A stretch of DNA of 64,000 nucleotides from Heterotrichella gracilis (taxonomy: Eukaryota > Sar > Xanthophyceae > Tribonematales > Xanthonemataceae): NCBI GenBank assembly GCA_032358255.1, contig JAULBX010015644.1, forward strand, positions 28,035-92,034, given 5' to 3'. Position 1 is the first letter of the stretch. The number at the start of each line of letters is the position of its first letter. The notes under the pieces were generated by a model that saw only the letters and a list, made by a program, of their open reading frames with translations, did no database searches and had not been told where the DNA came from. Made by a program: the position numbers and the translations under genes. Positions 5,948-63,925 of the stretch are shown piece by piece.

Positions 5948-8900
5948 ATGGCGGAGCCGCTTAGCCGGCAGGTGGAAAAGGTGGTGGACGCGCTGCGGGT
6001 GGTGAAGGAACCAGACGTACTGCTGCAAGGTGAGAAACACGGTCAGGGGTACATTGGTTCTAGCAGTGGGCAGGTCGCCCAGTGGCATCGCTCGAGACCG
6101 TTTAGCGCACGTGCAATGCATGCATGCATATGCTGCCGACTAGTATTACTTACTCCAACACGATTCCCAGCAATACATCCAGGCTGCAAAGCCATGTGGG
6201 GTTGCTAGACAACTAACTAAACCAACCCTTGCCTCAAACCCATGACAAACCCTTGCCCAAACCCTACCGTAGGGTTGAAGGACCTGCGGGGCCATGTGCG
6301 GGGCCGTGGCGGCGAGTCCTTCCTCACTGCCCTCCTGGAGAGGTCACCCGAGTGGGAGGAGCTGCACGCCATCTGGGATGCACAGCTGACGGTAGGGGAT
6401 TGGGGTTTTTAGGGATCTAGGGTTTAGGGTTTGAGCAGGTCACCCGAGTGGGAGGAGCTGCACGCCATCTGGGATACACAGCTGGCGGTAGGGGATAGGG
6501 TTTTAGGAATCTAGGATTTGTAGAGGTCACTTCAGTGCAAGGAACTGAGAGGGTTTAGGGTTAGGATTTAATGTCCAAGGTAAAGGGCCCTGAAATATGC
6601 TACTGGCGGAAGGATGCAGTGCCGGGGATCAGGGTCTGGCATCTAGGGTATAAAGTTTGGATTTTCACGGGAACCACGACCATGAGTAGGGTGGAGTTGG
6701 TCATTAGGGGTCAGGGTGTTATGCTTAGATTTTGAGGCTTAGGAAAATTGGAGCAAGAGTTGCAATGCAGGGTAGAAGTATAAGGGTTTTAGGAGTACGA
6801 GCTGACAGTAGTATGGCAGTGCCCAGGTTCAATTTATTTTTTATCAATACTGTCCTAATCGAATATTGATAACTCAATAAATCATTACCAGGGAGTTATG
6901 AAGAAGCTGGCAAAATTTGTGCATGCCCCATGCCCACTGGTACACATCCCACATGGACAACATGGGTGCATGTCACCCATGCTCAACCATGGACTAGGTT
7001 ACATCAAACCCTGGAATTCAAACCCTTAATGCACAAATTAGACGACATCACCCCCAGCAATCCACCCCCACCCTCTCCCAGACAAGGCAACATTCAAACC
7101 CTAAACCCTAAACCGCAGGCGCAGCACTACATCGTGACGGTCACCCTGCTCATCGCCCTCGCTGACATCATCGCCACGTCACTTTTACGAAACCCTAAAA
7201 CCCTACATGCAAACCCTAATCCGCAGGCGCAGCACTACAACGTCACCGTCACCCTCCTTCTAGCCCTAGCCGACATCATCGCCACGTCAGCACCGCACCA
7301 CCCCATACTCCAAGACGCCATCACCCACCTCGCGCACTCCATCCTCCAGCGGAGGATGAAGTCCCTCTACTTCAACCTTTCCTCCGAGGTTAAGGGCAAA
7401 GTGTGCGCCTCCCTTGCACTGCTGGCGGCCATCGCCAGGCGAAGCAGTGCGCTGTGTCGCGACCTCCTGCGCGCGTTTGATTTCACGCTCTCCGCCCTGC
7501 CCAAGGTCTGCCGCCTGCCCCGGTGCGACCCAAACCCCTAAAACCTGAACTTTAAACCCCAAACCCCTTTTTACAGCAAGAAGAAAGGGGAGGAAAAAAT
7601 GGCGGTCTGGCACGGCAGGAGGAAGGCGAACCAACTTCATGGAATGCCCTAAACCCTAAACCCTAAAACCAAACCCTTGGTGCAGCTAGAAGAAAGGGAG
7701 GAAGGAGTGATGCTGCTGCACCGCCACTGGTCGACCTGGCGAAAATCGGACCAACTAAACCCTACACCCAAAAACCTACGTCCTACATAGTACCTAATTC
7801 AGACCTAGCTCCTCCCCTTGACAAGCCCAATTCCTCTGATGTAGGGAGAAGAAAGGGGAGGAAGGGGGTCTGGCGCTGCTGCACCGCCACTGGGCCAACT
7901 GGAGAGAGTCGGATCAATTGAAGCGCCCCACCCGGGCGCACTTTGTGGCGTGGGTGCATGCGCTGCTTGAGTCTGCAGACAAGTCCTCGCTGTCTTCATT
8001 GCTGCACATCAGGTAGGTTTCAATAGGGTCTAAGGTCTAGGGGTTACGGTAGGAAGACCCCGGTCCTCAATTTGAGTTTCATGGTGAGGTGAGGTGTGTG
8101 CGATCAACCCGTTTAATTGTTGAGACTTTGACCATTTGTGGCGTGGGCGCTTGCGCTGCTCGAGTCTGCAGACAAGTCCTCCCTCTCTTTGCTGCTGCAC
8201 ATCAGGTGGGTTTGCGGGGTTCGACCCTCAACATGGTTTTTGAAATTGCGATTCCCACCTTGCGCATGCTCTTGATGGGGTGTAGGGGCTTTCGCTCCTT
8301 TGGGTTTGGGATGTCAGAGTCCAGGGTTTTTATTTATTGCTATTTCCACCTTGCGCAGGCCCTTGATGGGGGGGCTGCTGCACCACCTCTCACAAGACCC
8401 CCCCGAGAGCATCGTCAAAACCCTAGCGCTGCTGCGGGCTAGGGTGTTGCACCCCGCCGCCGCCCTCTCGCCCGCCGCGCGGTGCGAACCCTTCAGCGAT
8501 CCCGCACTTGCACAACTGGCGGCAATCACCGCCACACACGATGATGACGTGGCGAGCGGTGGATCTGATGCGGCGGCTGCTGGGGGCGAAACCTTAGGGA
8601 AGGACTCTGCCGGTGTTGCTGACGTGGCGCCGCCGGGCGGCGATACCCTAGGGGAGGGATCCAGTGGCGGCGAAACCCTTGGTGGGGCGACGCCGGCTGG
8701 GGGCAAAACCCTAGGGAAGGGTTCCGGGGGATCTGGAGGAGTGCCCGATGGTGCTGATGTGGCAAAAGCGGTGGAGGCTGCCCACGCTATGCTGCTTGGG
8801 CTGTTCACCAGTGCTGTGCATGGGCTGAGGGGCAGGGGGGGCGATGTGTGGAACGGGGAGGAGGATGGGGATGCGAGCTCTGGAGGTAAGATGTTCAGGA

Positions 8901-11900
8901 TCAGGTTGATATTTCTTGTGCCAGGGTGTTGTGTTACCTAAAAGAGGGTTTTTGTTGGGCTGATGTGGCAAAAGTGGTGGAGGCTTGCCTGGCTGATTGG
9001 GCTGTGCAGCAGTATTGTGCATGGGCAGGGGGGCAGGGGGAGCGATGCGTGGACCGGGGAGGTAGATGCAACCTCTGGCGGTCAGGGCGGGGATTGTTGG
9101 GGTTGGTTTTGCTTGCTTTTTGCCCGGCCCCAACACTTCACCACCCATGCTGCCGGTTGAAACCCACCTTAACCAAAGCCCTGCCGGGCCATGCCATTGA
9201 CTGAAAGCCCTGCAAAAAGTCTTTAAAGTTAACTAAAATTCTACCCAAACTTTGCAGGCGAGCGCCGCATCCTGCGCCTGTTGCTGCGGCTGCAACCCTG
9301 GGAGTGCAAGCGCCATGCGCAGCTGCTATTGGCAGTCACTGCCACATCAGCACCCCTGGCAGCTCGCCACCTGGCATCCGCCAACTGGCAGCTGGATCCA
9401 TCCCCCTCCCTGCGCTGGTTTACCTCTCTCACCCTGCTGGGGGTGGTGGTGGGGCAGGCGGGGGGGCGCAGGGGGTTGTTTCGGACCATGGCCGAGAGGT
9501 GGGTTGCCAGAGGGAGGCGGGGGTGTCTTGTAGGGTTTTGGGGTTATAAATTGAGTGCCCAGCTTTGGGGTTTCCTTAGGGTTCGCTACCTTTTTCCTTT
9601 TTTTTTAAATTGCAGTCACCAATTGCCAGACCATTATCCTCATCAAGTGTATCGTACCCCATGTGCATTGACCATTTAATGCACTCCAGGCGACTTCTCT
9701 GCTATACCATACTATTAAAAAACCCCAGCCGTAGATTTCCCAATTTGTTTTCACCCCCTTCACCACCCCCTTGCCCCCATCCCAGGGGTCAAACCCCACC
9801 AGCCATCGACAGCCCAGCCATCACCTCCCTGATCAAGCGTATCGTACCCCCCTGCCTGCCCAAATCGGCGCTCTCCAAGGGTCTCCAGCACCCGAATACC
9901 CTAGTCCGCTACGCCACACTCCTCTGCCTGAGGCGCATCCTCACCGCCCTGGCAAACTGCTTGGATGATCTGGAATCGGCTGCGATTTCTGCGGACGCCT
10001 ATGGCGATCAGGGGAGTGATCGGTGGCGCTTCATCCGACCCTTGGATGAGGTTGGATCGGCGGTTGGGACCGATCAGGGGGCGGGGATCGGCGGCGCTGA
10101 GGGGATGGTCCCAGACGGGGAGGGGGGTGATGCCAGCGGGCGAACGGCTGATGTGGTAAGTGGTGGTGTGATATTGGGTGTGATTATTCGTGGGCGTTTG
10201 TGATCAATTGTGGGATTGCTTTGATGAGACGGGGACTTTGTTTACCCATGTATTGGGGTCTGAGCTTGAACCCTGACCCTAAACCCTAAACCCTACACAT
10301 GTGCACCACCTGTCCTGTCTTAAAAGTGCTGTTGTTGTCTCGTGCAGGAGGCTGCTGCATCTGGTGGCTCCGCATGGCGCCAGCTGGCGCTGCATGTACA
10401 ACGTTCGGCTCGGTCCAGGCTTCCAGACCCCCAGCCCTTGATCGCACTGCACGCAAGCCTTGAAAAGGGTGCTGACATCAGCGCTGCTGCTGACGTGGCG
10501 CCACACCGTGCTGACGTCAGCGCTGACGTGGCATTGGTGTCTGGTGGCGATGCTGACGTGGCGATGCTCGGGGCCGACATCAGCGCTGATGTGGCGTCGC
10601 CTGCCGGTAGGTGATTGCTGTGGGTTTGACACTGTGGCATGTGTTTGGTAGGGTAGAAAATAGATCAGAGCACGGTTTCCAACAAGGCGTCGTGGTGGTA
10701 CATAAGGCGTTTGTGCTCTACCATGCGTTTGAGCTCAGGCTGTGGCTGAAATAATGTACAAAAAGAATTCCTGCGTTTTGGGTATATTTGAGCATTCTCA
10801 ATGCTGACAAGTGACCAGTTGACTGCTCCGGTGTAGAGGCACCAGGCCGCCACGATTAATAATCAAATAGATAACTTGAATTTATGTAGCCTTGAAGTGT
10901 TTGCATTACTTGAAATTAATACCCCTCCTTTGCAGATGCCGTCGCTGACGTGGCGCCAGAGGCCGAGGTGTCATTCGCTGAACTGGCGGCATTGGATGAA
11001 GACCTGCCCAAGGGGAGCGAGGGGGGGGAGGGGGATCTGGAGGGGACGGCGTGGGTGGAGCGGGATGTGGTGGGGTCCAAATTGCTGAGGGTGCTCGGGG
11101 GGTACCAGGAATGTCTTCCAGAGGCGACTGCAGACTCAAGGTTTGATGCGGACCGGCTGCTTCCTCAGGTAGGGTTTTGGGGGTTTCTGGGTGTAGGTTT
11201 TAGGATTTGGGGTTCATTAAGGGTTTTAGGGTACCAGGAATGCTTTCCGGAGGCGATTGCTGACAGCAGGTTTGATGCAGATTGGCTGCTTCCTCAGGTA
11301 GGGTTTTAGGGTTTCTTGGCCTAGGGTATCAGGGTAAAGGGTAAAAAAATTAGGCGCAGTATGCAATGGACCCACTGCAATTATCCCTCCTGGTCCAGCC
11401 CATTACCATGTCGTCCTAATGTGAGCACATAATCAATGCTGCTGGAATCGTTGGATGTAAAGAACTGAGCATACCACAGCAAATTCAAATCGACCAAGTT
11501 ACTCACCCGCATTTCCTCCTTTTCACAGGACCCGGTGCAGTTATCCCCCCTGCTCCAGCGGGCCCTCCTGGACCTTCTGAAATGCGGCACCAAATGCGGG
11601 GGGGCGCGCGGCAATGTGCCCCATTTGGCCACCGGCACAATTCTGGCCTTGCTGCGCCTGGGGATTGGGGGCGCAAGTGGGGATGTGAAAAAGGGGGCGT
11701 TCGCCCTGGTGCAGCAACGGATGGCAGCAGCGCTGGTGGGTGACCTTTCTACGAATAATATGTATAATTAGGATGTATTTTATTGCAGAAAGTACCAAAA
11801 ATAAGGAGTATAACTAAATATAGGCAATGGCGCTTGTGCAACAGCGCATTGCAGCGGTACCGGTGGAAAACACAGCCAATATTTCCCCCTCCTGTTTCCA

Positions 11901-14900
11901 GGCGTTTGATGCCTCCCCCGAGGAGCTCCAGCTGTGGGTTGCACCCCTGGCCACCCTACCCAGCCCACCCACATTGGCAAAACATACACCAACAATACAC
12001 ATTACACATGAGCAAACAAGCCCTTGAACCACTCTTTGACACCCTTCCTTCCTAGCGTTCTAATAACACTATTTATTCGATGTATTGTCCTATTTTCAGG
12101 CGTTTGACGCATCCCCAGAGGAGCTCAGCCTGTGGGTTGCACCCCTGGCCACCCTGCCCAACGCACTCACCCTGGCCAAAGTCATTGAACAAAACAATAA
12201 TCGACATGAGCGAACGAGGTCTTGACCCACTCTTTGACATCCCTCCTTTCCAGCATTTATTTAGTTCGATTTATTTTTTATTTTCAGGCGTTTGACGCAT
12301 CAACCGGGGAGCCGAGGCTGTGGGTTGCATCCCTGGCCACCCTGCCCACCCCACTCAGCCTTGCCCCCCCAAACTCCATATGGTAGACATGAGCAAACAA
12401 TGTCTTGATCCACTCTTGAACACCCCTCCTCCATAGCACTCGAATAACTTCTACCTTGTGTCTTGTCCCCCTATCACCAGGCGTCTGATGCCTCCCCCGA
12501 GGCTGTGGGTTGCACCCCTGGCCACCCTGCCCATCCCACCCACATGTGCAAAAAAATACACCAAAAATACACGTTAAACATGAGCGAATAAGGGCTTTCA
12601 CCATTCGTTGGCACCCCTCCTTCCCAGCGTTCTAATAACACTATTTATTCGATGTATTGTCCTATTTTCAGGCGGTAGCTGCCTCCCCCGAGGAGCTGCG
12701 CCTGTGGGTTGCACCCCTGGCCACCTTGCCTCACCCCCCGATGCTTGCCAAAAACCACACACAAAATTAGTAAGTAGACGTGAGCGAACAAGGTCTTGAC
12801 CCACTCTTTGACACCCTTCCTTTCAAGCAGTGTTACAATGCTCTTCAATTGCACTTATTTTATACTTCCAGGCGTTTGATGCCTCCCCTGAGGAGCTCAA
12901 GCTGTGGGTTGCACCCCTGGCCACCCTACCCAACCCACTCACCCTGGCAGCATTCCTATCCGAAGCCCTGACCTCCACCGCACGGCGCCCTCACGAGCTG
13001 TATGACGTGGCGCGCGCATCGCTGGCCTCAGCTTACCAGGTAATCGCTTATCCCTACACCTCTAATCCATGGATTGTGCCAAGTAGTCTGGTGGCGCTTG
13101 GAATCAGCATTGCATGTCATCAGCCTGCGCAGAGTATGGGGTGACCTGGCGCAGGCGTCACTTGGTATGTGTTATGTATTCTGCATACTTGTGTTCATTT
13201 CTGCCGAGTATTGTTGCAGGTGCCATCACCGCCAGGTCAGCAGCGGGCAATGGAGTACAGCTTGTCTGCGGTGTGCTGCCTGCGCCAGGCATTTAGTTAG
13301 TCAGTTACATGCATTCCAGCAATACAGCCAAGCCAGCAGCGGGCCACGTCTTTAGGGCTTGTCTTATTTAGGTTCATAGATTGTATATTTTCTGGGGTCA
13401 TATTTTGCTGGATATTTTTGCAGGTGACATCACCGCCAGGTCAGCAGCGGGCAATGGAGTACAGCCTGCTGGTGGTGTGCTGACTGCGCCAGGCCTTTAG
13501 GGTCCTAGGGTCTGTAAATACACAAAATGCATTTCTTTTGCATGATCGGCATTTAATCTATCTCTGCATTTCAATTTTTGTTTTGCACTTTCTTGCAGGT
13601 GACACCACCACCAGGTCAGCAGCGGGCAATGGGGTACAGCCTGTTGGCGGTGTGCTGCCTGCGCCAGGCCTTTAGGGTCCTAGGGTCTGTTAAGCGGAGC
13701 GCGGAGGAGCGGGCTGCGGTGGCGGCATACACGGCAGGTAGGGTGTGGCTTTATACTTTTGCGCATCGGGGTTTGAGATTTAAGGGTTGTTAAGTTGGGA
13801 TGTCTGCCCGAATGGCCAGCGTATTCGACTCCAGCTACCCTCTTTTCATCGTGCCTCTTTTCATCGCATGTCAGGTAAATTTTAGTAAAAGTTTATTGAC
13901 ATTCAATTTCCATGCCAATTTCCTACCAGGGTATTTTAATTTAATTTAAGTGACAACTTTAATCATTCCTGCCGCAGGCGTCTTGTCCAGCCTGATTCAA
14001 ATTCAAACCGACCCCCTCCCGCTGTGCCTGCTGATCGACCACTGCATGAGGAGCCAAGCCAAGCCCCCCACAGAAGCTGATACCCTACCATCCGAGGGCA
14101 AAACCCTAACGCTGACCCTACCCGCCGAGGGCCAAACCCTAGCATCGCTGCACGAGTTTGCGGCTGGCATCTACAGTGATCGGTGCCGAACGGGCGCACC
14201 CTCCGATCGTCTCATCAGCCGATCAGGGGAGGTTTCTCCTCAGTCCAAGAAACGCAAGATGGGGTCTGAAGAAGAACCCTCTCCAAGCAATGTTGAGGGC
14301 GCCCAATTTACCCTGCAGGTAGGTTTCTAGGAATTGCATTCGGGGTCATTTCAGAACCCTCCTGTAGGGTTATCCTGGTCACCCCGTTTATCCTGCAGCT
14401 ATTGTGTTCAAGTTTTGCCTAGTTTTTCATTCATTTATGTTTTCCGTCGCCCTGTGAGATTATAAAGAGAGGGAAAGGCAATTCTCTTCCTACAAATTGG
14501 ATTTTATGAAATCCAATTGGTAGGCAAAGCAGCGCCTTTCTCTTTGTTAATCATCATTTCCCACCCGACTTTGAGCAAATTGTCGTTTCAACTCCAGGTG
14601 CTGCATGCCAGTTGTAGAACAAGCTGCGCATTCATCCCTTGTCTAATCATGCATCCATTCATTTAATCTTGTGTTCCTCCGCTTACCCTTGTCTTCTTTG
14701 CTACGAACAGGTGGTTGCCGACTCAGGGGAGTCTTTGAAATCACTGAAACGGCTGCTGAAGGGCAAGACAGGGTCCTCACCAGGGGAGATACACCAGGTG
14801 GGTACAGGTTTTAGAGCTTTGGGTTGCTTAGGGTTTACTAGTGGCTGCCAGGGTTGAGAGCTATTTGTGCTTGACCACTCGGCTACCTTCACTATGGACC

Positions 14901-40466: not shown

Positions 40467-41580
40467 GGGAAGGGAAGAGCCAATGGATTTGAAGTTTGGA
40501 CCTTGAAGCAGGCGCCTGCATTCAACAGCAGGCTATTACCTGGATTGTGAGCAGGATGCCCTAGAGCTGCAAGGGGTGGTGTGAGACTGCCTGTAAGCAG
40601 CCAAGGCTGCAAAGGGGAAAGCCAATGGCGGGATGCCAGCTGGGTAGGGGAAAGGAGGAGCCAATGGGCTTGAAGTGTGGGAATTGAAGCAGGCGTGGTG
40701 CACTAAGTCTTACCCATAGGCTAAGAAGGAAAGCGCTAGAGCTGACCCTAGTAGGGTGTGCACAGCTGCAAGGGGTGGCATCAGAAGCAGCTGTGGTATC
40801 AGAAGCAGCCTGGAAGCAGCCAAGGCTGCTAAAGCCAACTTGGCCTTGAAGGCCAATGGCGGGGTCCCTGGCTAGGAAAGGGAGAAGCCAGCGGATTTGA
40901 TTTAATCACCTTATGGGATGTCTGCTTGGGATGCAGTGGTACTAACACTGGCAATATCGTTTATGTGTCACCTAGGCATTTTTATTATAATTTGAACTAA
41001 CCAGCAGTGTACGGCACGTATTGCCGCCCAGTGCCACTGAGTATGACAGCCAACACAGGTCGGCGGGGCAAGTGTAACAGTGTGGTATATATATAAGGTG
41101 TATGCCTGCTGTGACAATGTCATGTGATCACTAGTCCTTAGGCTAAGGAGAAAGGCTTTTCTCAGTTGGTCGAGATATTCTTTAAGTTACACCAAGAGTC
41201 CATGGATTGGATGCATTGGAGCCTCTTGCAAGTTGGCCATCGTGTCGTGCAGGTTGTTAACTCAACAACTTTATAAACAGACTGTAAAACTTAATAACAT
41301 GTTGTCTGACACGACTCATGACTAAATTAGATTAAATGCTACTTAATTACATTAAATGCTACCAGCGCTCCTGTAGCAGACCGTGATATTACGTCGTCTT
41401 GTCCATGCTGCAGCTGTTCCAACTTGTTAACACTGTGTTAAACTTTACAAGAGTACTGACAAGCGCAGCGAGTCATACTCCAATCCCAGTCAACTCAAAA
41501 ACCATTATGCCCCCCCCCCCACACACACAACTGTCAGCTGCAGACGCCACACACCCCATAGCGATTGGCAATCAAGGACA
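40467..41580. other. MTR3 3' flank with two ghosts of its terminal exon
   Basis: About 40550-40665 and 40735-40880 repeat the end of the terminal exon, including stop-proximal GCCAATGGCGGG.TGCCAGCTGGGTAG (the first has internal TGA/TAA changes, the second loses the stop context). The remainder to 41580 shows no gene. A long AT-rich stretch near 41280-41360 has repeated ATTAAATGCTAC words. Confidence 0.7.
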
Positions 41581-41864
41581 TTGCGCGCAACCTCCAAAGC
41601 AGAGCAGCGCACGGCCCAATCATTGCATGTGCAACAGGTAAATCAATGTGCACACACAGCCAAATCACCACACGCGCAGCAGGTAAGTCTGATTTAGTAA
41701 ACACACTCAGCCCAATCCTTGCCTGTGCAGCAGGTGCGTTGGTGTGCATGCTCAGCCCAGTCATTGCGTGTGGCCCCTCCCCCTCCCTCCCCACCCCTTT
41801 ATAGTACCCTTCAACGGCCACCACAATGCCCAGAGCTGGCACAGTCCAGTCAATGCATGCGCAC

Positions 41865-42296
41865 TGCCCAGTCCTCTCATAGGCACAGCCCAATCAGCGC
41901 ATGCGCTGGAGCCCAATCTGCGCTTGGGAACAGCCCAATCCACTTACGCGCACAGCCGAGTCCTCTCCTGGGCACAGCTCAATCAGCGCGTGCGCTCGAG
42001 CCCAGTCCTCTCATGGGCACAGCCCAATCAGCGCGTAGGCACAGCCCAATCAGCGCACCGGCACAGCCCAATCAGCGCGTGGCCACAGCCCAATCCTCTC
42101 CTGGGCGCAGCCCAATCAGTGCCTGGGCACAGCCATAACCTCTCTTGCGTACAGCCCATATTAGCGCGCGGGCACAGCCCAATCATCGCGTGGGCACAGC
42201 CCAATCCTCTCCTCGGCGCAGCCCAATTATCGCGTGGGCACAGCCCAATCAGCGCGTGCGCACAGCCCAACCCTCCCGTGCGCACCAGGCCAGTCC
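41865..42296. repeat. ~22-bp CCAAT-containing minisatellite directly after the type II GT gene
   Basis: About 20-25 imperfect units of GGGCACAGCCCAATCAGCGC plus a 2-bp link, with AATCAGCGC and AGTCCTCTC as the two alternating cores; decayed units reach back to about 41600. The array abuts the TGA at 42297-42299 of the minus-strand gene, so it would form its 3' UTR or terminator region. Each unit carries CCCAATCA, a CCAAT-box look-alike. Confidence 0.88.
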
Positions 42297-46848: not shown

Positions 46849-49079
46849 GTCCGAGCTACACCATGGTCTTTAGTGTGAAGATCTCAGGGACAGATAGAGG
46901 GAGGAGGTTGTGGACAACCAGTTTGTAACAACTGGAGGTGCAACAAGAGTCGACAAGGACTATGGGCGAGGGTGGCTAGGCACCACGCCTGAAGGGCATT
47001 TACCCACGAGTACGCCCAGCAGTACTAGTCTGTTATAAGAGTAAGAACAGGGAGTGTAGATGTCGATATGGGCGAGGAATGAAACGCTCTGCAAGACCTT
47101 GCCCAGGTGCTTATGCATGCATGTATGACTGACTCATTGCTAGGCGAGTACTGTGGTCCAAATTTTCAACGCGCTGCACAGCAACGCAATAACATAATTC
47201 TGCACTCCCTTTCGTCTCCACTTCCACTTTCAGCTATTTAATAATAGTGATCTGATGAACACAACCCGCCGCTGCCCCGGCGGTCCCGCCTTCTTGCTAG
47301 GCGGCCTGCTGGCCCAGCAGGCCAGAAAGAAAGGAAGAAAGGGAACGCACAGAGGCGTAGTTAGGGGGCCACTGGCTCGCACCAGGGCACCACACCAGCC
47401 AGAACCACCAGCCACATCATTTCCCCCCGAAAAAGCTTTCTTTTATTGAGACTAGAAAGGAGAAAGGAGGAAAGGGGACGCACACAGCCGTAGTGAAGGT
47501 CCCTGATGATCCCTGATAGCCTATCATGGGCTATCAGTATGGTAGCACTGCAGAGCAGTGTACTATCATGCAGTCAATACAATGCTCCTTGCCTAGTCAC
47601 TGTGGTACAAGGTATGCACCATGGAATGCCCTAAGGGTTCAAGTTGCTGCAGCAACTTGACACTGGGCATGCCCAATGCCAGGCCACTGGCCCGTGTCAT
47701 GCACGCGTGTCAGACCCAGACCCCTTAAGACTAATATTAATGCAATATTATCTAGCTACATATGTAGCTAGATAATATTGGATTATTATTCTAATTTAGT
47801 CTAAAATTCCAGTCACAATGACACTGCCCAGTGGGCTGATGTTTAGTCTCAGAGGAGCGTTGACAGACTGCAATAAATTAAATTGCAGTTTGCAAGCGTT
47901 CACAGTTGGAGAGTGGTTACGTTGTCAACTTCGACAGTGGGTTGTTCAATACTGCTAGACTACCGCCTTGTACACTCCCTAGTCAAACTTTGTCAATGAC
48001 CAGCATACTGGATGTTGTGTCAAACTTGGCAACGCTCTGGACTTGGTCTGTTAATAAGTTATTAAGCACTTGGCATAATATAAATACACTCAAATGGGCA
48101 CCTAGAATTACTGAAAAACACTCAGTGAAGTTGAACAGATATCCCTACGCTACGCCTGTGGGAAATAAAAACCCAGATCATGCAGCGATGATCAGGTATG
48201 TTTGCGCCATGGGAACCGTGAAGAAGCGGATTCAAACAGCAAATGCCAACGAAATTCAGGAAACGAAATTGACGAAAATCTGCAAGTGATACTGTAATAG
48301 CACTGTAGGGTTTGTACTTGGTGTTTCTGTCAGCAAAACTGTACCCTGACGAGGTATATGGTGCTCTGAGGTTCACACTGAAATTTTCCTTTCGATGGGC
48401 TTTGTACAAACTGTCCAATGGGTATGCCAGAAACAGCAGCTATCCTATACCAATTCAATCTCACGGGTTTCTATGAAAAACACCCTTTGATGCTTGTAGA
48501 GGTTACGGTACAGGGTTTAGGGTATTGTCACCAGAAACCCTATGGGCACATACCCCCTACAAGGCCACCGGGTGCACTACAATTCACGTGGAAAGTCTAC
48601 ATTTGGACTACCGATACGGAGGTGCATCCAAGCAATGCTGGAATATTTTCTATCATATATATACTAGTTCAATCCCATTACCCTTCTGACGTCTACAAAA
48701 TACACACTCCCACTCCAAACTCCTAGAAATGATGCTTGGTTAACGCACACTTTTGTTTCCTGAACATGTCTTCTACCCCCTGGCAGATGAAAATCAGGAG
48801 CCAGCTAATTGCAATGTCAGTGAGGCAACGGAATGTGGAGACAGGCGTGTAAAAAGAATGGGTGCTGAGCGAGCATGCGGTGCGCACATGACGGGTATGG
48901 CCAGTGCGATTCTCCTAACAGCATGAAATGAAAAGAAAGAAAATGCAGCCAATACGTGCGGCATCCTCAGCTGCTACACATCCAAGCGCAGCCCTGTGTC
49001 TGGCAATGCCCCCCAAATAAATTAGGCGCTCTCAAGTACCGCTGTCAAGTACAGCTGTCTGGGTTTAGGGTTTAGGGTG
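46849..49079. other. Intergenic stretch, no convincing gene
   Basis: 2.2 kb upstream of the type II GT gene and downstream of the GH128 gene. Short frames (for example 47906-48289 +) show no family features, no splice support and AT-rich composition. It contains the 38-bp palindrome at 47743-47780 and a loose duplication of AGAAAGG..GGGAACGCACA.AG. at about 47325 and 47455. Confidence 0.5.
47743..47780. repeat. Perfect 38-bp palindrome in an ~80-bp imperfect inverted repeat
   Basis: The bases 47743-47761 (CAATATTATCTAGCTACAT) are exactly reverse-complementary to 47762-47780. The match continues imperfectly outward (TTAAGACTAATATT / TAATTTAGTCTAA) to about 47725-47806. It could be the remnant of a foldback/MITE element or a cruciform-forming site. 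Confidence 0.85.
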
Positions 49080-52000
49080 TCAGTTGGGACCAGGAGCCAG
49101 GGCAGGCGCAGACCCTTCCACCTCCGGTGCCGCTGGCGGTGGTGGCGATGGGGAGGGTGGCGGTGGCGCAGGCGGTGGCGGCGATGGTGTGGGTGGCGGT
49201 GGCGCAGGCGGTGGCGGCGATGGTGTGGGTGGCGGTGGCGCAGGCGGTGGCGGCGATGGGGTGGGTGGCGGTGGTGATGGTGATGGCGATGGCGGTGGTG
49301 AGGTGGCAGGGCTGGGTGGTGGTGGTGGTGAGGTGGTGGGGCTGGGCGGTGGTGGGGTTGTGGTGGGGGGTGGGGGGCGCTTAAGGGGTGTGGACCTGAC
49401 CTTGGGAGAAGAGTGGTGTGGGTGCTTGTGAACCGTAGGGGAGGGTTTTGGCGAGGGTTTTGGCGAGGGCTTGGGAACCCTTGGGGAGGGTTTTGGCGAG
49501 GGGTGCTTGGCTGGCGTGTGCTTGGGGCTGGTTGGCTTTGTAGCCTTTGGCAAGTGCTTTCTGGAGGGCTTTGTAGCGGGTTTTGGCGAGTGGTTGGGTT
49601 TCAAAGGCTTGGGTTTTGGCGAAGCTGGCTTTCTAGCTGGCTTGTGTGCCGGTTTTGGTGTGGTGGGCTTGGTGGGTTTGGGCTTAGGTGAGGAAGGCTT
49701 GTGCGCTGGCTTGTGCGCAGGCTTGGGGGTGGTGGGCTTGGTGGGTTTTGGCTTGGGTGAAGAGGGTTTGTGCGCTGGCTTGTGCGCAGGCTTGGGGGTG
49801 GTGGGCTTGGTAGGTTTTGGCTTGGGGGAGGAAGGCCTGTGCACTGGCTTGTGCGCAGGTTTTGGTGTGGTGGGCTGGGGCTTGGGGGAGGAGGGCTTGT
49901 GCACTGGCTTGTGCGCTGGCTTGGGTGTGGCGGGCTTGGTGGGTTTTGGCTTGGGTGAAGAGGGCTTGTGTGCTGGCTTGTGAGCAGGTTTTGGTGTGGT
50001 GGGCTTTGATGGTTTTGGCTTGGGTGAAGAGGGCTTGTGCACTGGCTTGTGCGCTGGCTTGGGGGTGGTGGGCTTGGTAGGTTTTGGCTTGGGTGAGGAG
50101 GGCTTGTGCACTGGCTTGTGCGCTGGCTTGGGTGTGGTGGGTTTGGTAGGTTTGGGCTTGGGGGAGGAAGGCTTGTGCACAGGCTTCGGCTTGGGCGAGG
50201 ATGGTTTCCTAGGCTTGGGCGATTTCCTAGGCTTGGGTGATGAGGGCTTGGTCTTTGGGGGCGGGGGTGGGTGGGAGCCTGCACATGGTCATTGGAAGTG
50301 GTTAGCCAAGGTGCGATCAGGGGCAGTGACTCGACATCAGTGGCAGTGCAATCATTAGTAGTGCGATCAATGACAATGTGATCATTGGTAGTGGTTAGCC
50401 AAGGTGCGATCATTGGCAGTGCAATCATTGGTAGTGCGATCATTGTAGTGCGATGCCGATTGCTAGTGGTGAGCCAAGTGTGCGATCAGTGCCAATGATG
50501 TGAATGTGTGCGATCACGCCACGTGCCCGGTCACCCTAAACCCTAACAGGCCAGCAGGTGCACACCATGCAGGATCTGACATGCGCCAAATCCTGAATCC
50601 TAAACCCTAAACCTTAACAGGCCAGCAGATGCACAATTTTGCAGGGGCTCACATGCGCCAAACCCTACCGGCATGGCATACTGCACGCTAAACTAGGGTT
50701 CCTTCCTAGTGCTGTAAACCCCTTCCATCCACCCCACCACGCTGCCAGTGCCACACCTTTTTTAGGCGGCGGCGGCACGCCCTCCTCCCCAACTCCCCGG
50801 GATGGCACAGGCGCACCCCCGGGACCCAGCTCAGTCCCCTGTGAGGGCCCAAGTCCTTCACTGGGACCAGGAGCACCCCCGGGACCCAGCTCAGGGCCGG
50901 GGCCAGAAGTGGATGTGGGTGTGGGTGGAGCGCCAGGGGCCGGTGGGGGGCGGGGTGGTGAGGCCTTTTTCAGGGGGTGTTTTGCCCGCTCCTGGGCCGC
51001 CTCGATCATCGCCTGGAGGGGAGGAAAGAGTTTAGGGTTTAGGGTATTTTAGTTTGGGTTTACGTGTGCAAATGGGCAAGGTGAAATGCCCGCTCCTGGG
51101 CCGCCTCAATCATCGCCTGGGGGGAAAGGACAGGAACATTTAGGGTTTAGGGTTCTAGGGTACAGATTACAAAATGTGCACGGTCGAAAACAGTTACAAG
51201 TACAAATAAAAACTGTAGACTATAATCTGGCTGTACTGCTGGAACGCGTGTGAGTAATTGTGGAACTTTGATGCATGGCATGAGAAGGAAACAACTTGTT
51301 AAAGTTAAGCAAGAAAGATGGGAGAGTGCTATCCTTGCCTTGGTGCGCGCCGCTGCCTCCTGTCGCGCCCGCTCCTTGCCACGAGCGCGCGCCGCATCGC
51401 GCTTTGCCTTGAGCGCAGCAGCGGCCTTGGCTCGAGCCGCGGCCTCCGCCTTGCGTTGCTTTTCTAGCGACGCTTCCCTTGCCTTCTTGGCCGCCAGCGC
51501 TTTCTTCGCTGCTGCCTCCCTTGCCTTGGCGGCAGCTGCAGCAGAAAGAAATCAACATGGAATGAGCAATGAAGCAATTGAGAAAAATGAATGAAATCAT
51601 GAACTAGGCAGCAGAAAGAAATAGAAGCCATTATTGACATATAATTAAAATACAACATAAGAAAATTGTAATTGCCATGCATTGCCCTCCTAATGCCCCG
51701 CCACTCCATTCGAGCATTGACTGTATACAGTTTATCCGGTAAAGTGAGCTCTACTGCAGCAAAGTATCACAATAATATCGGATACCACCTTACCTGCCAG
51801 CTTGGCCTTTTTGGCAGCAGCCTCGCGGGCCTTCTTGGCAGCAAGCGCCTTGGCTGCTGCTGCTTCCCGCGCCTTCTTGGCAGCTAGCGCTTTCTTTGCG
51901 GCTGCCTCCCGGGCCTTTTTGGCAGCCGCGGCCCTGCGCGCAGCATCTTGCTTCTTGCGCAGTGCCGCTGCCTTGGCTTTGGCTTTGGCGAGGGCAATGG

Positions 52001-55000
52001 CCCTGTGGGGAGAGTGTATATGTTTTAGTCAATGGCAAAACTGATGTAACACAGCGAGACGTTTCAAAACTACCACAGTCAACAAACCATTGATGCTCAT
52101 TTCCATAATTGATCTACTTTATATACATATATATATCACGTGGGATTGGCAGGAGGCTCATGGCCAAACTATGCAACGCCATTGCGGCGGAGTGCATTGC
52201 ATTGGTTGGTTGCCATTGCAACGCCACCAGATGAACTGCGCATTCACACGGTGCACCAAAACCCCCCACCTTGCTTTCTCAGCAGCCTTCTTCTTAGCCA
52301 GCGCAAGCGCCTTGGCCGCCGCTATTGCCCTAGCTTTAGCCCTCGCCTTCGCAGCCGCCTTAGCCGCCGCTTTCGCCTTAGCAATCGCCTTAGCCTTAGC
52401 TAGGGCCCTGGCTTTGGCGGCCGCTTTGGCCTTTGCCGCTGCTTTGGCCTTTGCGAGAGCGATCGCCCGCTCCGCCGCGCGGCGCCGATCCGCCGCTGCG
52501 CGATCGGCGGCGGCCTGCTTGACCTTGCGGAGGTAGGCGGCCCTGTCGGCGGCGGCTTGCGCTGCTTTGGCCTTGGCCTTGGCCCTGGATGGGGGGAGAT
52601 AGGTGGATTTTAGAATGGATGCTTAAGTCATGCAGACAGCAAATTTACGCTACATTGCTGTAATATGAACTACAATTTTGAATATTCTCCCTGTAAATTA
52701 TAACAATTTACAGGAAGTTTACTCTAAATTACAGGAAAGATCCAGTTTTATTCTTGTTGTTTAGAAAGCTGTCATTAGCTAACCTCCTTCTTGTACATCC
52801 TTACCTGGCGAGGGCGAGCGCCCGCTCGTTGGCCTTGCGCCGGTCCGCCGCCGCCCGATCCGCCTTCGCCTTTGCCGCCCTCACCCTCGCCTCGGCAGCC
52901 TGTTTCGCCTGGAGCTGCTGAATGAGCTGCGCCTTGAGAAAGCTTGCTGAGGGCCCCACTTGGGCGAGGCCAGCGAAGACGTTGCCGGTGGGTGTGTAGC
53001 CGCCACCCCCATCCAGCAGGTTGGAGCCGTAGGTCTGGAAGTCGCCCCCCGGGCGGGTATGCACCCAGTAGTAGCGCGTGAACACCCCTGCAGGGAGTGG
53101 ATGGGTATTTAGGGTCTAGCATTTAGGGATTTTTTGTAGGGTTTTTTGTTTTAGGGTTTAGGGTTGCCGGTGGGGGCGTAGCCGCCGCCCCCGTCCAGGA
53201 GGTTTGAGCCGTAGGTCTGGAAGTCGCCCCAGTGCAGGGTTTAGGGTTTCTGCTTAGGGTTGGAGCCGTAGGGTAGATGGGTTAAGGGTTGAGGGTTACG
53301 AATGAGAACCTAGCAGTAGCTGGGCCACCCACCAATGCCCCTGAAACCCTAAGAACCCTAAGAACCCTAGGCGCACACCCCACCACGCACCCTGTTTCCT
53401 CAGGTAGCTGTCCATCTCCCGGAGGTACCCTGCATTGCGCCCTTGGTCCCCACCACCGCACGCGATTTCGGTGAGCCACACCGGCTTGCCAAACTGGCCC
53501 AGGTCGTCGTGGTAGTTGATGAGGGATTGGAGGTCGCATTGGTACAGGTGGGCCTCGATGGCATCCACGCGCACATCCCGACAGGCCTGTGGGAGGGTGG
53601 GGGTTGGAGTGAGTGGATTGGGGATCAAAGTCAGTGCATGTATGTACGGGATTTGTACAGGCTGTCTGGGTGTAATATATCAAAGAAATAATAAAGAGTG
53701 GCCCAGGTCGTCGTGGTAGTTGATGAGGGATTGGAGGTCGCACTGGTACAGGTGGGCCTCGATGGCATCCACGCGCACATCCCGGCAGGCCTGTGGTAGA
53801 GGTGGGGTGCGTGAGGGCCGGAGGATGGCTTTTCAATGTTTAAATGAACTGATTCGACAATTATTTCAGCTGTGACGGTTGGAGGCACAGGTCACACTGA
53901 TTCATCAAATTAATAACATGAACTCTAATTGTAATATAACTCATCATTGTTATCATTCCATCATGCAGCAGGCCGCTGCACATAGGGCTGCAGGGATTAG
54001 GGTTTCCAGAGTGATATAGGGTTTCCAGGGTGTTTGACGCACGTCGAGGAAGGTGCGGATCCAATCCGTGTGGCTCCAGTTGCAGATCCCAGGGATTGCC
54101 TTGCGGCAGTAGATCACGCTTGGGGACAGCATCTTGGTCCCGGGCGGCATGCGCGCTGCTGCGGCCCTGCAAATGCGTGAAATGGAACTGAAAAACCTGC
54201 AAGAGTGGCAGCGCCTATCCATGTTCATCCCTCTAGATTGGTGTCTGTGTGTGTGTGGTAAGAGGTGTGCGTGCGGTGGGTGGAGGCAGGCGTGCGTGTG
54301 GGTGTGGTGGTGGGTGGTGGGTGGGTGTGGGTGGGTATCGAATGTGCGCAGTGCATGCCGCTTAAGGACAGGGCTTGGGGACACATTTCAGTGCCGGCGG
54401 ATATGGGCGCTGCTGCGGCCCTGCAGGGTCGGTGTGTGCAGCGGTGGTGGGTGCGTGTGGTGGGTGGTGCTGGCCGGTGGGGATGGGTATGCTGTGGCAG
54501 GCGGAGGAGGGATGGTGGAATGGATGGAATGGGATATGGATGTGTGGTGGATGAGAAGGCCACTCTGGGTTGTTATTTTAGGGTTTTGTGCTACCTAGGG
54601 TATTACCTGTGGACCGCGCACGCTTGCCAGGGGTCCCTAGTGTGCGCCCATGGGGCCAATACCGAGTTGACCTCATTAGCTCCACCCACATGCTGGGGGT
54701 TTTGGGAGGCGATGAAACCTATGGTCCCCGCGTCATTGCTCCGGGGTAGATAGTGGATGTAGTCCTTGCCACAGCTGCAGGGCACACAAGGGCTTTTGGT
54801 TTTGTGCTAGGGTTAGGTTCAGGGTCTGGATTTCAAAAGGGTGTTGGGCAAGGGGTCTGGGCTAGGGTTTAGGGCAAGGGGTCAGGATGTGGTCCAAGCC
54901 ACAGCTGCACTGCACGCAACGGGGTTTGGTGTGCTGGGGTCAGAGCGATGGACGCCCCCACGTGGCAATCCCATCCAAAAGGAATGTTATGCTGATGCTT

Positions 55001-55325
55001 TTAAATGTGCAAAGATGGTTGCTCATTTGGTTGCACTGTTGGGAAGTAGTGTGGCCATTTAGTCTCGCCAATAATACCATCCCCACCTGTTTTGCACTCC
55101 CCAGTTGTGGTAGCAGTCGGTCCCCAGGCGATCCAGGTCGGAGCACTGCACGCCATTTCCCGAGAAAACCACGCAGCGCTTCTCTAGCCCCGCCACGGGA
55201 TCCCACAGCAGTATGCAGTGGACCACCCACAGCAGGCATGCCCTGATTGTGAGCCTGGGGAGCGCTGGGCGCAGCACCAAAACCCTACTAGAGGGTTTTT
55301 GGGGCTGCGCCTGGGGCGGCGCCAT
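49080..55325 (-). CDS. Secreted GH128 glucanase-type domain + Ala/Lys-rich helices + extensin-like Pro-rich tail, 10 exons
   Basis: Exons 55325-55087, 54774-54607, 54166-54043, 53586-53391, 53087-52805, 52584-52270, 52002-51794, 51535-51339, 51012-50757 and 50278-49080 (TGA) join in frame to 1061 residues. A signal-peptide-like stretch ([12 protein letters not shown]) leads into [23 protein letters not shown] (Glu114, acid/base), [22 protein letters not shown] (Glu217, nucleophile) and [18 protein letters not shown]. This is the motif order of GH128 (Asl1-like) beta-1,3-glucanases; NEP is NEV here. Residues ~280-590 are Ala/Lys/Arg-rich helix ([15 protein letters not shown] type). From ~600 on there are [13 protein letters not shown], then ~23-residue [20 protein letters not shown] repeats, then SPPPP blocks. 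The exon 51535-51339 donor appears to be GC (AAG|GCAAGG). A wall-anchored glucan-binding or cleaving protein is inferred. Confidence 0.82.
49380..50180 (-). repeat. 69-bp coding tandem repeats of the extensin-like tail
   Basis: About eight units of 23 codons ([20 protein letters not shown]), with VH/AH and length variants. They are followed toward the C-terminus by shorter SPKPSPK units and then SPPPPxPxP blocks (about 49110-49370, itself a [12 protein letters not shown] repeat). Nucleotide identity between units is high, suggesting ongoing unequal exchange. Confidence 0.9.
51075..51130 (-). repeat. Acceptor-side ghost of GH128-gene exon 9
   Basis: TGCCCGCTCCTGGGCCGCCT then CAATCATCGCCTGGGGGGAAAG copies the start of exon 51012 ([10 protein letters not shown]), about 107 bp upstream in minus sense. 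TTTAGGGTTTAGGG lies between. Confidence 0.9.
53120..53275 (-). repeat. Internal fragment of GH128-gene exon 5 bounded by telomere-like repeats
   Basis: 53162-53232 copies an internal part of exon 53087-52805 ([22 protein letters not shown]), not a border. It is enclosed by TTTTAGGGTTTAGGGTTGCC on one side and CAGGGTTTAGGGTTTC on the other; a further scrap (TTGGAGCCGTAGGG) follows. Confidence 0.9.
53698..53795 (-). repeat. Acceptor-side ghost of GH128-gene exon 4
   Basis: A ~90-nt near-identical copy of the start of exon 53586 ([20 protein letters not shown]...) with an intact CCACAG-type acceptor, about 207 bp upstream in minus sense. Confidence 0.92.
54385..54435 (-). repeat. Acceptor-side ghost of GH128-gene exon 3
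   Basis: CGCTGCTGCGGCCCTGCAGG at about 54410 repeats the CTGCAG|GGCCGCAGCAGCG border of the exon at 54166; the copy then decays. Confidence 0.75.
54880..54920 (-). repeat. Acceptor-side ghost of GH128-gene exon 2
   Basis: ATGTGGTCCAAGCCACAGCT|GCACTGCACGCAACGGG parallels ATGTAGTCCTTGCCACAGCT|GCAGGGCACACAAGGG at the start of exon 54774. Confidence 0.8.
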
Positions 55326-60700: not shown

Positions 60701-63700
60701 AAATACTTTGGGGCATCTAGGTAGTGTGGCGAAATCCCATTCCATTTGCTTGCCCTTGGGTGACCGACCTGGGAGCACCCTATGGTTTCCGGCTGTTGAC
60801 CAAAACCCTTAACAAACCCGCTTGGCTTCCTCATCGAGCCCTAGCCAGAACCCTGCTGTGTAAACCCCAAGTGGCCGGATCAGCAATTTGGCCTACCACC
60901 ACCACCAACGCAATGATCGTGAATAGGCTATTGCCCAACTCACCCTAGTCTAAACCATGGTGCCAAAGAGCAGCGTTTTGACCCAATCCTCCCCTCGTTC
61001 ACAGGAGCTGCAATGCAACGATCATGACCAGACCATCACCCTGGTCATGACCATGGACTCGGACCTGACCCTAGGGTTTGACGAGCCAAGGCGCTACACT
61101 TCATTCAATTTCAAATGGAAACCCCTAGCAAAAGGGAAACCCTAATCTGGCATCCATTTAGTGATTTCACCCCAATTTCTGCACTATCAACAGGAGCTGC
61201 AATGCAACGATCGCGATCAGACCATCACCCTGGTCATGACCATGGACTCGGACCTCACCCTAGGGTTTGACGAGCCACGGCGCTACACTGCTTGGAAGCG
61301 GGGGCTGTCCCTGCTGCTGAGTACCCTCCTCGAGCCTGTGGGGCTGGAGGGGCGAACAGCGGCTATGGGGCCGACGATGGGGGAGGCAGGTGGGTGGTGG
61401 AATGATCACGCGCATCGGCGCCTACACTACAACCAGCCGCAGGGCATGCATGCCATCGCCACTATCCACCCGCCCCACCCTCTCCCACATGCACCACACC
61501 ACACTCAAAGAACCCCAATACCCCCACGCGCATATTAACCCCCCCTTCAAAGAACACACTCTTGTTACTCCCCTTGGAGATGAGGTCAGCACCCCCATGC
61601 ACATCATCAAGCGCTTCAGTTCCTTCACAACTACCAGCCGCAATCCACGCCTTAATCCCCACTATACACTACATACACTACACCACACACAGACGAGCCC
61701 AACACCTACATATACACATTGACTCCCCCTCTAAACCACACACTATTTCTACTCCCCTTACAGACGAGGTCAGCACCCATGCGCATCGTCAAGCGCTTCA
61801 GTTCCTTCACCAAAACCGTGTGTATCCTTGCCACAAATCACCCTTCCCCATGCATTACACTTCAATGAAGTCAAGCACCCGCATATGCACTCACTTAACC
61901 GAATCCTACCCCAAATTCCACCACCTCACCCACCCACCCCACTCCACAGATGAGGTGAGCACCCCCATGCGCATCATCAAGCGCTTCAGTTCCTTCACCA
62001 ACACCAGCCGCAGGGCATGCGTGCCCTCGCCACAACCCACCCTCCCCACCACTCACCACATACCAAGGAGACCAATCACCCGCATGCGCACTCGTTGCAC
62101 CCCTGAATCCCGTCCCGTCTCACACCCCCACCCCCACTCCACAGATGAGGTCAGCACCCCCATGCGCATCATCAAGCGCTTCAGTTCATTCACCAACACC
62201 AGCCGCAGGGCATGCGTGTCCTCGCCACACGCGCGCCAGCAGGAGCAGCTGACAGCGGCGGCGCTTGCTGCCAAATCCACCCTCAGGGCAGCGCACATCT
62301 ACCTGGGATCAAGCGAGGTGAGTGGGTGGCTGTGAGCAACTGTTTTTAGAGAACTTGGGGTATTTCTGAGCATTTAGGGTTTGCAACAGGGTTTAGGGTC
62401 TTGGCCACATGCACCCCAACAGGTGCAGCTGACAACAGCGGCACTGGCAGCCAAATCTACCCGCCTTATGAAATTTGGCAAATACCTGCTGTTTGCAGGA
62501 CCCAGGCGCATCCTATCTGCCTCACGGTCTGCCACACCTCATGCCACCCTTCGTCGCCCAATGAAATAAAAGGAAAAAACTCACCATGCTGACATGTGCC
62601 CTCTGTTTGCAGGACCCAGATGCGTCCTATGTGCGGGACTCCAAGGCAGATGTGGTCAAGTCACTGAATGAGTTCCTGAGTACGCCCGAGCGCCCCCTGC
62701 TGGCTCCCTCCCTGCCCCCCTCCTCCATAAAACGCTCCCCCTCCTCCCCAAGCTTCCGCATCGTGAACGTGGACAAGGGGGAAGACACAATTGACATGGT
62801 AAGAGCAGGACGGGGAACCATGATATTTTGGACTGTTGCATTGAGTCAGGTAGATAGGAAAATGTGTCATATTTCCTACCTAAACTTTCACAAACCCCAG
62901 CGCCCCCAGGGCATGTCTTATAAGGGCAATGTACCCTGGAAATGGAGAGGAAGGCGAGAATTTGCATTCCAGGCCAAGGGATTTGCCTCACTTTGTTGAC
63001 AGGAAAGAAGGCGCAATTGCGTCCAGGTGCTTGCAGGGGTTGTCTGGAACAAAGCTGTGCGCTGCACTAAATTTTCATCCCCTCAGCCCTGGCTAAAACC
63101 CTTATTTTGCCTCCCAGAACCCTGAAGCGGGCGACCAGCACTGGATCAAGCGCGCCATCCGGGGGAGGCTGGCCTTCAACCAGGAGAAAACCCTAGCCAG
63201 CACCCTAGCCAAACCCCCGCAAGGGTCCAAGCACCGCAGCGCCCCTGCGTCTGTCATCAACGGCGGGGATGAGGAGAATCCCGAGCCCGGCGCCGGAATC
63301 CAGTCAGGGGTGGTATTGGACAAGGAGGATGACAGGGTACCCCTGAACATGTCCAAGGCGCCTAGGAGCGATGACGCGCGCCCCTTTGCAGCACCCGGCA
63401 GCGACGCAGGTGGGTGTCAGATAGCTGATCAATCAAAAGTGATCATTTACGTACATAGCTTATAACTTGTCATAAACTCATGTTCTATAAATGGAAGTTC
63501 AAACAATGCATTTCACCGTCTCATCCCATCCGGACAATCACAAGAGAGTCCATACCTTCCACCAGGGTTTAGGCACATGAGCAAGTACATGTCCACAAAT
63601 TCCCCTGCCATGTAAAATGCCATCCAAGTTTTCAGCGGCAATGCAATGCAATTTTTATAAACTAAGATTACTCATTATGTGTAATTAATTCCTCCCAACT

Positions 63701-63822: not shown

Positions 63823-63879
63823 GTGAGGCCTGAAACCTAAACCCCAAGGAGTTGAAACCCTACCCAAGTGGCACCTAGA

Positions 63880-63925
63880 TGCACCAGGACACTCCTCATG
63901 CATAAGGGTGATGCCTGAACCCTAT
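63880..63925 (+). repeat. Donor-side ghost of 7TM-PH exon 11
   Basis: ATGCACCAGGACACTCCTCA then TGCATAAGGGTGATGCCTGAA mirrors ATGCACCAGCGCCACCCCTC then ATCGGGCATTAGGGTGAGGCCTGAA at the exon 11 end, 80 bp downstream. Confidence 0.85.

Follow-up and report, generated by a model that had tools for sequence, protein, structure and literature searches.

The nearest described systems concern duplications at or near splice sites, as presented in the consulted parts of four reports. In potato, an intron-exon junction of the RdRp gene was duplicated, and one such event created a new intron together with a new exon (PMC4974935). In Drosophila, tandem duplications of coding sequence lie behind five of 31 novel intron positions found genome-wide, with proto-splice sites inside the exons (PMC2891723). 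Direct repeats of 4-30 bp near intron splice sites have been taken as marks of insertion (PMC11782384), and introners are described as families of similar introns (PMC9860276). Here, we describe a 64 000-base window (the whole stretch of DNA analysed; contig JAULBX010015644.1, positions 28 035-92 034, assembly GCA_032358255.1) from Heterotrichella gracilis (Xanthophyceae), in which many introns and some gene flanks contain decaying partial copies of the edges of neighbouring exons, referred to below as ghosts. These copies are real, far denser than expected by chance and more regular than was seen in the original prediction, a reading of the bare sequence that had reported partial exon copies filling the introns of every gene. 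Coordinates are numbered from the first base of the window.

Copies of exon edges and their tandem order

Ungapped direct repeats (lag 20-700, score of at least 20) number 294 in the window and 0, 0, 0 and 1 in four block-wise dinucleotide shuffles, and self-BLAST of the window returned 153 direct matches versus seven inverted ones. The window has a G+C content of 49-57% per 4-kb block and carries intron-rich eukaryotic genes. Gene models were built with our own hidden Markov model (HMM) gene finder, trained on open stretches within the window and with no transcript behind the models, which gave seven multi-exon models, distributed over both strands, and a further model with a single exon at the left edge. 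Seventeen predicted exons that duplicated a neighbouring exon were taken out by hand, leaving open frames, and were counted as copies thereafter; copy counts thus depend on that judgement. A search of the window with Rfam at gathering cut-offs and for tRNA genes gave no matches.

A first count on the curated models yielded 88 exon copies, with at least one copy in 52 of 87 introns and in all seven multi-exon models; some of these copies are only 1-24 bases long, four of the 87 'introns' are shorter than 100 nt and may be artefacts, and one model (40710-55325, minus strand) is probably a fusion of two genes. When the terminal 150 nt on either side of each exon were aligned, with gaps, to the adjoining intron (81 introns of 60-1300 nt), 77 copies in 46 introns were found, whereas exon edges paired with other introns gave 0, 1 and 1. 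No copy was detected in the other 35 introns. Five of the 77 are doubtful, four lying in a low-complexity stretch (49629-50793) and the fifth (32621-32839) copying a coding end; their removal leaves 72 copies, spread over 43 introns. There are at most five copies per border and six per intron. The copies are mostly diverged, by 10% on average at codon positions 1 and 2, which makes simple assembly duplication unlikely. Copies of downstream exon starts, on the acceptor side, outnumber those of upstream exon ends, on the donor side (49 versus 28, or 46 versus 26 without the doubtful ones).

These counts bear out the original prediction in its figures of over 60 copies in total and 1-5 of an adjoining exon, and also in its range of copy ages, from near-identical to barely recognisable. 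Its statement about every gene stands for the seven multi-exon models on both strands but does not extend to every intron. The hazard it foresaw for gene prediction was encountered directly, in the 17 exons that our own gene finder called and that were judged to be ghosts.

The position and order of the copies follow those of a tandem duplication. Among the 72 copies, 53 start exactly at the splice site, and those inspected (a subset of the alignments) break off abruptly mid-exon; copy length varies, while the lag is fairly constant. Where one intron holds copies of both neighbouring exons, those of the upstream exon end precede those of the downstream exon start in nine of ten cases, the tenth (49629-49844) being of low complexity. 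A duplicated unit composed of exon end, mini-intron and exon start, which predicts downstream-exon copies first, was rejected on this order. In 26 of 51 events the spacer between copy and exon matches (z > 3) the flank predicted on the intron side, and in ten of 51 the opposite side does so (Wilcoxon p = 0.0017; three array regions were left out beforehand and other arrays kept). Certain young units lie adjacent to each other with their intron part included, and the array at 24489-25289 repeats intron at an identity similar to that of the exon part. Thus, both the order and the predicted-side flank homology of tandem duplication across coding borders are found.

Spacing, decay and borders without splice sites

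Successive spacings of the copies (n = 72) are concentrated in one class, with 51 between 150 and 230 bp (mean 191, standard deviation 13). A second class comprises 18 spacings below 150 bp (88-141; mean 115, standard deviation 13), about 75 bp under the main class, and three spacings are larger (254, 332 and 391). Inclusion of the coding-end copy places 52 of 73 spacings in the main class; two Gaussians describe this set better than one (Bayesian information criterion, BIC, 688 versus 722), and a third component (BIC 673) captures a single point only. Similarly, 33 of 52 nearest-copy lags (35 of 56 with doubtful copies) lie at 165-220 bp, with p = 7e-15 against a uniform distribution over 60-420. 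The spacing of 60-250 bp given in the original prediction conceals the two sharp modes at 191 and 115 bp, which were overlooked there. The lags show no leaning to multiples of three (22/15/16 modulo 3). A helical-phase preference in the lags was also considered and rejected (Rayleigh p of about 0.45), and a hidden rhythm of about 190 bp outside the detected repeats showed at most a marginal excess in the 58% of the window left after masking.

The main spacing recurs where no intron border is involved. The lags across stop codons are 205, 219 and 181 bp in three of four genes and 294 bp in the fourth, an upstream copy of a first exon has a lag of 206 bp, and two intron-only pairs lie at 213 and 210 bp; the remaining intron-only pairs are shorter (71-133). 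The spacing therefore seems to be tied to the duplications and independent of splicing. A length of about 190 bp is what would be expected of one nucleosome repeat, or of one nucleosome-paced Okazaki fragment, and the spacings cluster near this value. Two unit lengths, 127 and about 205 bp, occur in the array at 24489-25289; these units have their intron part in common and differ in the amount of exon, which suggests that in that case the 127-bp units are the longer unit after internal loss.

Coding ends are copied downstream, stop codon included, in four of the five genes tested, URB1 being the exception, and one of five coding starts is clearly copied upstream, with one marginal case in addition. 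Classification of 107 events gave 70 between exon and non-exon sequence (35 each way), 25 intron-intron, ten exon-exon and two mixed. For the exon-exon copies taken as lying within one exon, the lag is 63 in two cases, 117 in another and 60 in the last, each divisible by three; a further lag of 195, also divisible by three, probably belongs to a mis-modelled ghost, and the other five join different or mis-modelled exons. An exonic repeat at 303-428, with a lag of 174 (58 codons), was left out of this class as minisatellite-rich. Lags that are all multiples of three fit blind duplication filtered by selection. The emphasis of the original prediction on exon borders as such is not supported: coding ends are copied past the stop codon, within-exon lags keep the frame, and a few intron-only and 3'-flank copies show the main spacing.

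Decay of the copies is largely that of non-coding sequence. Frameshifts occur in 40 of the 72 copies, and 71 indels are frameshifting versus 16 in frame (43 of 77, and 77 versus 23, with the doubtful copies). Substitutions were counted at exon sites covered by at least two copies, as changes unique to one copy or to the exon. Those specific to the exon fall on codon positions 1/2/3 as 10/9/31 (p = 5e-5), and those specific to a copy as 61/54/79 of 364/365/359 sites (66/54/80 with the low-complexity stretch included). The leaning to third positions is far weaker in the copies than in exons, though not nil, and the pattern indicates that copies drift, or nearly so, while exons are constrained.

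The decoy AG or GT/GC is intact in 54 of the 64 copies that reach the splice site (35 of 41 acceptors and 19 of 23 donors; one of the 64 is the coding-end copy), and many of these decoys have good-looking pyrimidine tracts or donor contexts. The reservoir of decoy splice sites that had been predicted is thus present. Overall identity alone leads to an expectation of about 32 intact acceptors and 17 donors (about 49 in total). Nothing in the window points to decoys being selected against. On these readings, if correct, good decoys have to be skipped routinely by the spliceosome, and it would be the real exon, rather than its ghost, that gets spliced.

Explanations for the copies

Any explanation has to account for the observed copies and their positions, their largely non-coding decay, the intact decoys, the spacing quantum and the stop-codon cases. 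The one we favour, with somewhat more confidence than doubt, is that local tandem duplications recur anywhere along genes, with a unit of about 190 bp and a second class of about 115 bp, and that ghosts are the halves which survive and decay, the unit being set by chromatin and a second process contributing to the upkeep of the copies. Recurrent duplication of units of about 190 bp would hit genes at any position, and selection would purge copies wholly within an exon, sparing those whose length is divisible by three. A copy straddling a coding/non-coding border, be it donor, acceptor or stop codon, would leave the exon intact and add a partial copy that is spliced out or lies past the stop. 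Such a ghost would remain visible because selection holds its exon twin still. The unit length would most likely be set by chromatin, for instance by Okazaki fragments or breaks one nucleosome repeat long, and mis-ligated flaps or short template jumps could then yield tandem copies of about 190 bp. A second process, perhaps exon-to-ghost gene conversion, would have to keep ghosts similar for longer than the surrounding intron. A bolder version, which we regard as possible but doubtful, extends this to ongoing chromatin- or replication-paced copying throughout the genome, at about 190 bp per step, in which the exon twin refreshes the copy by conversion and introns grow in nucleosome-sized steps along with decoys that the spliceosome must ignore.

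Several results weigh against recurrent duplication followed by neutral decay as the whole account. Random placing of 191-bp units on these genes predicts border and intron-only events in a ratio of 0.61-0.66 to 1. Of the 25 intron-intron pairs, about six are read as having no connection with ghosts or with the one transposon-like insertion, and with seven allowed in the test, border events make up 70 of 77, against an expected fraction of 0.40 (p = 1e-20), or 0.57 with double visibility (p = 9e-11), the events not being independent of each other. The original prediction had staked itself on a genome-wide excess of exon-border over intron-only duplications; inside the window that excess is present, 70 against six or seven, and as it goes beyond geometry it requires an explanation. 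Further, the mid-exon ends of the copies are not uniformly placed but bunched, their median distance to the splice site being 82 nt (38 events, Kolmogorov-Smirnov p = 1.5e-4), and the 115-bp spacing class is not explained by this account. The flanks pose a separate difficulty. Beside ghosts at least 95% identical at codon positions 1 and 2 (18 pairs, mean 0.98), flank identity is 0.76, versus 0.72 for unrelated sequence; flank identity does not track ghost identity (rho 0.07, 65 pairs), and the in-register intron match is gradually lost within some 30-40 nt of the splice site. Even between two ghosts, both free to drift, identity is 0.86 in the exon-like part and 0.81 in the flank (29 pairs, p = 0.002), and in the five-ghost array at 11890-12948 the corresponding values are 80% and, for the spacer, 66%. 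The flank measure is a weak one, since random flanks already align at 0.72. Decay of the whole unit at a neutral rate nevertheless fails, with flanks near random beside ghosts about 98% identical. Under neutrality, a copy would be expected to age at least as fast as the intron around it, and the ghost is thus refreshed or protected in some way. Exon-to-ghost gene conversion would have that effect and would also favour pairs of which one partner is held constant; the mismatches show slight clumping (z = 0.60 ± 0.15 for the longest identical run, 58 pairs), a weak fit to conversion. Some constraint on a few ghosts is possible as well. Two features of the substitutions point in that direction: the mild third-position excess among copy-specific changes (p = 0.03), and the differences of the most identical pairs (e.g. 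those at 26818, 53495 and 45629), which lie mainly at synonymous sites in a comparison that used uncurated models and included a low-complexity stretch in a probably wrong frame.

The border excess, the loss of homology within 30-40 nt of intron even for ghosts at least 95% identical, the bunching of mid-exon ends about 82 nt into the exon and the combination of variable copy length with a fairly constant lag would all be expected if the copying machinery itself preferred exon edges. Such a machinery would place about 100 bp (some 80 nt of exon and 20 nt of intron) one nucleosome repeat away, by template switching or by repair linked to transcription or splicing, and the sequence in between would be pre-existing intron. 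We regard this as the live alternative, yet as unlikely: stop-codon and 5'-end copies have no splice sites, 26 of 51 events show spacer homology on the side predicted by duplication of the full unit, and intron is repeated as well in the young array (24489-25289). The synonymous differences and the third-position excess, together with intact splice sites and better preservation than in the flanks, could instead mean that ghosts are functional alternative or regulatory exon pieces under selection. That reading is improbable in view of the open frame, which fails in the 40 frameshifted copies and under a surplus of frameshifting over in-frame indels (71 to 16), and in view of a third-position bias far below that of exon-specific changes (61/54/79 against 10/9/31). 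It also counts against this reading that copies usually stop mid-exon and would therefore not be expected to have a second splice site of their own.

Intron gain through tandem duplication of an AG|GT site (the Rogers model), with ghosts as marks of new introns, draws on the abundance of tandem duplications with splice-like sites, but we give it very little weight. When donor and acceptor contexts were compared in register at intron length, one strong case emerged, 32621-32839 (score 40 versus 13 for the next), and this is interpreted as duplication of a coding end, since the frame, left unspliced, yields a complete C-terminus; moreover, copies of upstream exon ends mostly carry a donor and not an acceptor (19 of 23). 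Two exon-edge copies around unrelated sequence also resemble a target duplication, and one transposon-like insertion with a 36-bp direct repeat is indeed present at 23134-23442. Insertion of transposable elements, whether introner-like or of another kind, that leave long target duplications is nonetheless even harder to credit, given that matches between loci look only low-complexity or telomere-like (self-BLAST of this window, judged by eye) and that a variable copy length accompanies a nearly fixed lag. The least probable explanation is an assembly artefact, which sits poorly with copies that are mostly diverged and regular in order and spacing.

Individual loci, other repeats and known systems

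Pfam matches above cut-off identify three of the genes: PF11707 (URB1/Npa1, in two pieces), PF01138 (exosome RNase-PH domain) and PF11790 (Glyco_hydro_cc). Ceramidase-like (PF05875), nucleotide-sugar-transferase-like, RgpF-like and coiled-coil proteins were matched below cut-off only. The URB1/Npa1-like gene (5948-28269, plus strand) has 33 exons after removal of 15 ghost exons, and 20 of its 32 introns contain exon copies. Near its start, a ghost of the end and donor of exon 6273-6391 lies at 6437-6504 (lag 96, 94% identical), one of the acceptor and start of exon 7227-7522 at 7103-7181 (lag 108, 87%) and one of the end of exon 7845-8012, with an intact donor-like CAG|GTGGG, at 8135-8213 (lag 193, 89%). 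Five ghosts of the acceptor and start of exon 12872-13039 form an array at 11890-12860, with successive spacings of 185-200 bp and the AG kept in all five, and two ghosts of the acceptor and start of exon 13599-13737 follow at 13199-13518 (lags 379 and 175). The youngest array (24489-25289) comprises five ghosts of the start of exon 25290-25475 in units of 127 and about 205 bp, the copy pairs being 86-98% identical with telomere-like intron sequence included. At 25926-26112, a single intron holds two ghosts, first that of the upstream exon end (lag 188) and then that of the downstream exon start (lag 185). The ghost of the acceptor and start of exon 27022-28269 (26818-26917, lag 200) is 97% identical; its three exon differences are all synonymous and its flank is strongly diverged.

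The exosome RNase-PH-domain gene (37433-40466, plus strand) has seven copies in five of its six introns, and its 3' coding end recurs at +181 and at about +380-400; an upstream copy of its first exon lies at 37242-37314 (lag 206). Its protein has a Protein Data Bank (PDB) match with an E-value of 5.8e-31, and the PDB homologues are collinear with the ghost-free model. Also on the plus strand, the ghost of the acceptor and start of exon 61194-61389 at 61001-61100 (lag 189, 95% identical) was called as an exon by the gene finder. On the minus strand, the HMM model and alignments give many ghosts in the RgpF-like gene (42300-46869), for example at 42690-42764 (lag 198), 43160-43220 (lag 100), 43391-43653 (two, lags 391 and 213) and 45629-45710 (lag 332). 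In the Glyco_hydro_cc gene of the same strand, a ghost of the acceptor and start of exon 53391-53586 lies at 53699-53808 (lag 204), and both exon differences are synonymous. Two further minus-strand cases are coding ends copied with their stop codons: in the 3' flank of the ceramidase-like gene (2072-2377, lags 205 and 418), and at 32560-32630 (lag 219), a border without a splice site, where the real terminal exon is placed at about 32752-32937 by open-frame reading.

Telomere-like 7-mers of the plant type (TAGGGTT/AACCCTA) occur at 3.5 per kb in introns, compared with 0.9 in exons and 0.7 between genes, for example in introns at 6400-6440, 7096-7120, 24560-25270 and 42400-42600. The G-rich form is concentrated close to donors, with 27 of 52 occurrences in the first two deciles of the intron, and the C-rich form is shifted towards acceptors, with 62 of 88 in the second half. 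These 7-mers may be splicing signals or marks of repair insertions. A pairing of the two forms at both intron ends was considered and rejected, both being found in six of 87 introns with no association (Fisher p = 0.61). The transposon-like insertion at 23134-23442 has perfect 10-nt inverted ends (GGCGTGCCGT/ACGGCACGCC) that are 186 nt apart within the 36-bp direct repeat (94%, spacing 273). A 22-bp unit with a CCAAT core is repeated about 20 times at 41838-42308 (the plus strand has 12 exact CCAAT), just past the apparent stop of a minus-strand gene near 42300, and a 26-bp minisatellite of about nine copies (90-94% matches) lies at 33708-33948. Coding-looking 69-bp tandem repeats at 49606-50250 are Pro/Lys-rich in one minus-strand frame, the model frame there being doubtful, and Ala/Lys-rich stretches occur near them at 51300-53000.

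If the pattern holds genome-wide, a common mutation class, short local tandem duplication, would be tied to a physical ruler of one nucleosome repeat, and the genome would offer a natural series of events of different ages on which that ruler can be tested. It would also provide a route for the stepwise lengthening of introns, a demanding natural experiment on how genuine splice sites are distinguished from decoys that are almost the same, and a reason for caution in gene prediction in such genomes.

Satellite DNA monomers also form tandem units near the nucleosome repeat length. The duplications in the window differ from satellites in that they mostly add one to three copies of a unique gene sequence to an intron and do not build large arrays of one family. 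In yeast flap-processing mutants (FEN1/rad27), tandem duplications are tied to lagging-strand fragments, with units mostly shorter than those of the window. No description of exon-edge copies this dense, or with a nucleosome-length quantum, was recognised among the titles and abstract openings listed in searches of an open-licence library, a body that leaves most subscription journals outside.

As far as the consulted parts of the four reports go, each shares something with the window, the potato and Drosophila cases coming nearest. Introners are similar in that intron content is linked to nucleosome linkers and introns are affected en masse (PMC9860276); they are set apart because the spacers of the window look unrelated between loci. 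The direct repeats described near splice sites likewise lie at or near intron-exon borders (PMC11782384), whereas the copies in the window are tens to more than 100 bp long and stand at a preferred distance. The Drosophila cases share local duplication followed by loss of the coding role in one copy, but the consulted parts of that report present neither ghosts of existing borders nor a size quantum (PMC2891723). The potato RdRp gene is alike in having a tandem junction copy within the gene, the splice signals of which come from the parental border; the window differs from it in having dozens of copies per 64 kb, an apparently unchanged exon structure and a preferred unit length (PMC4974935).

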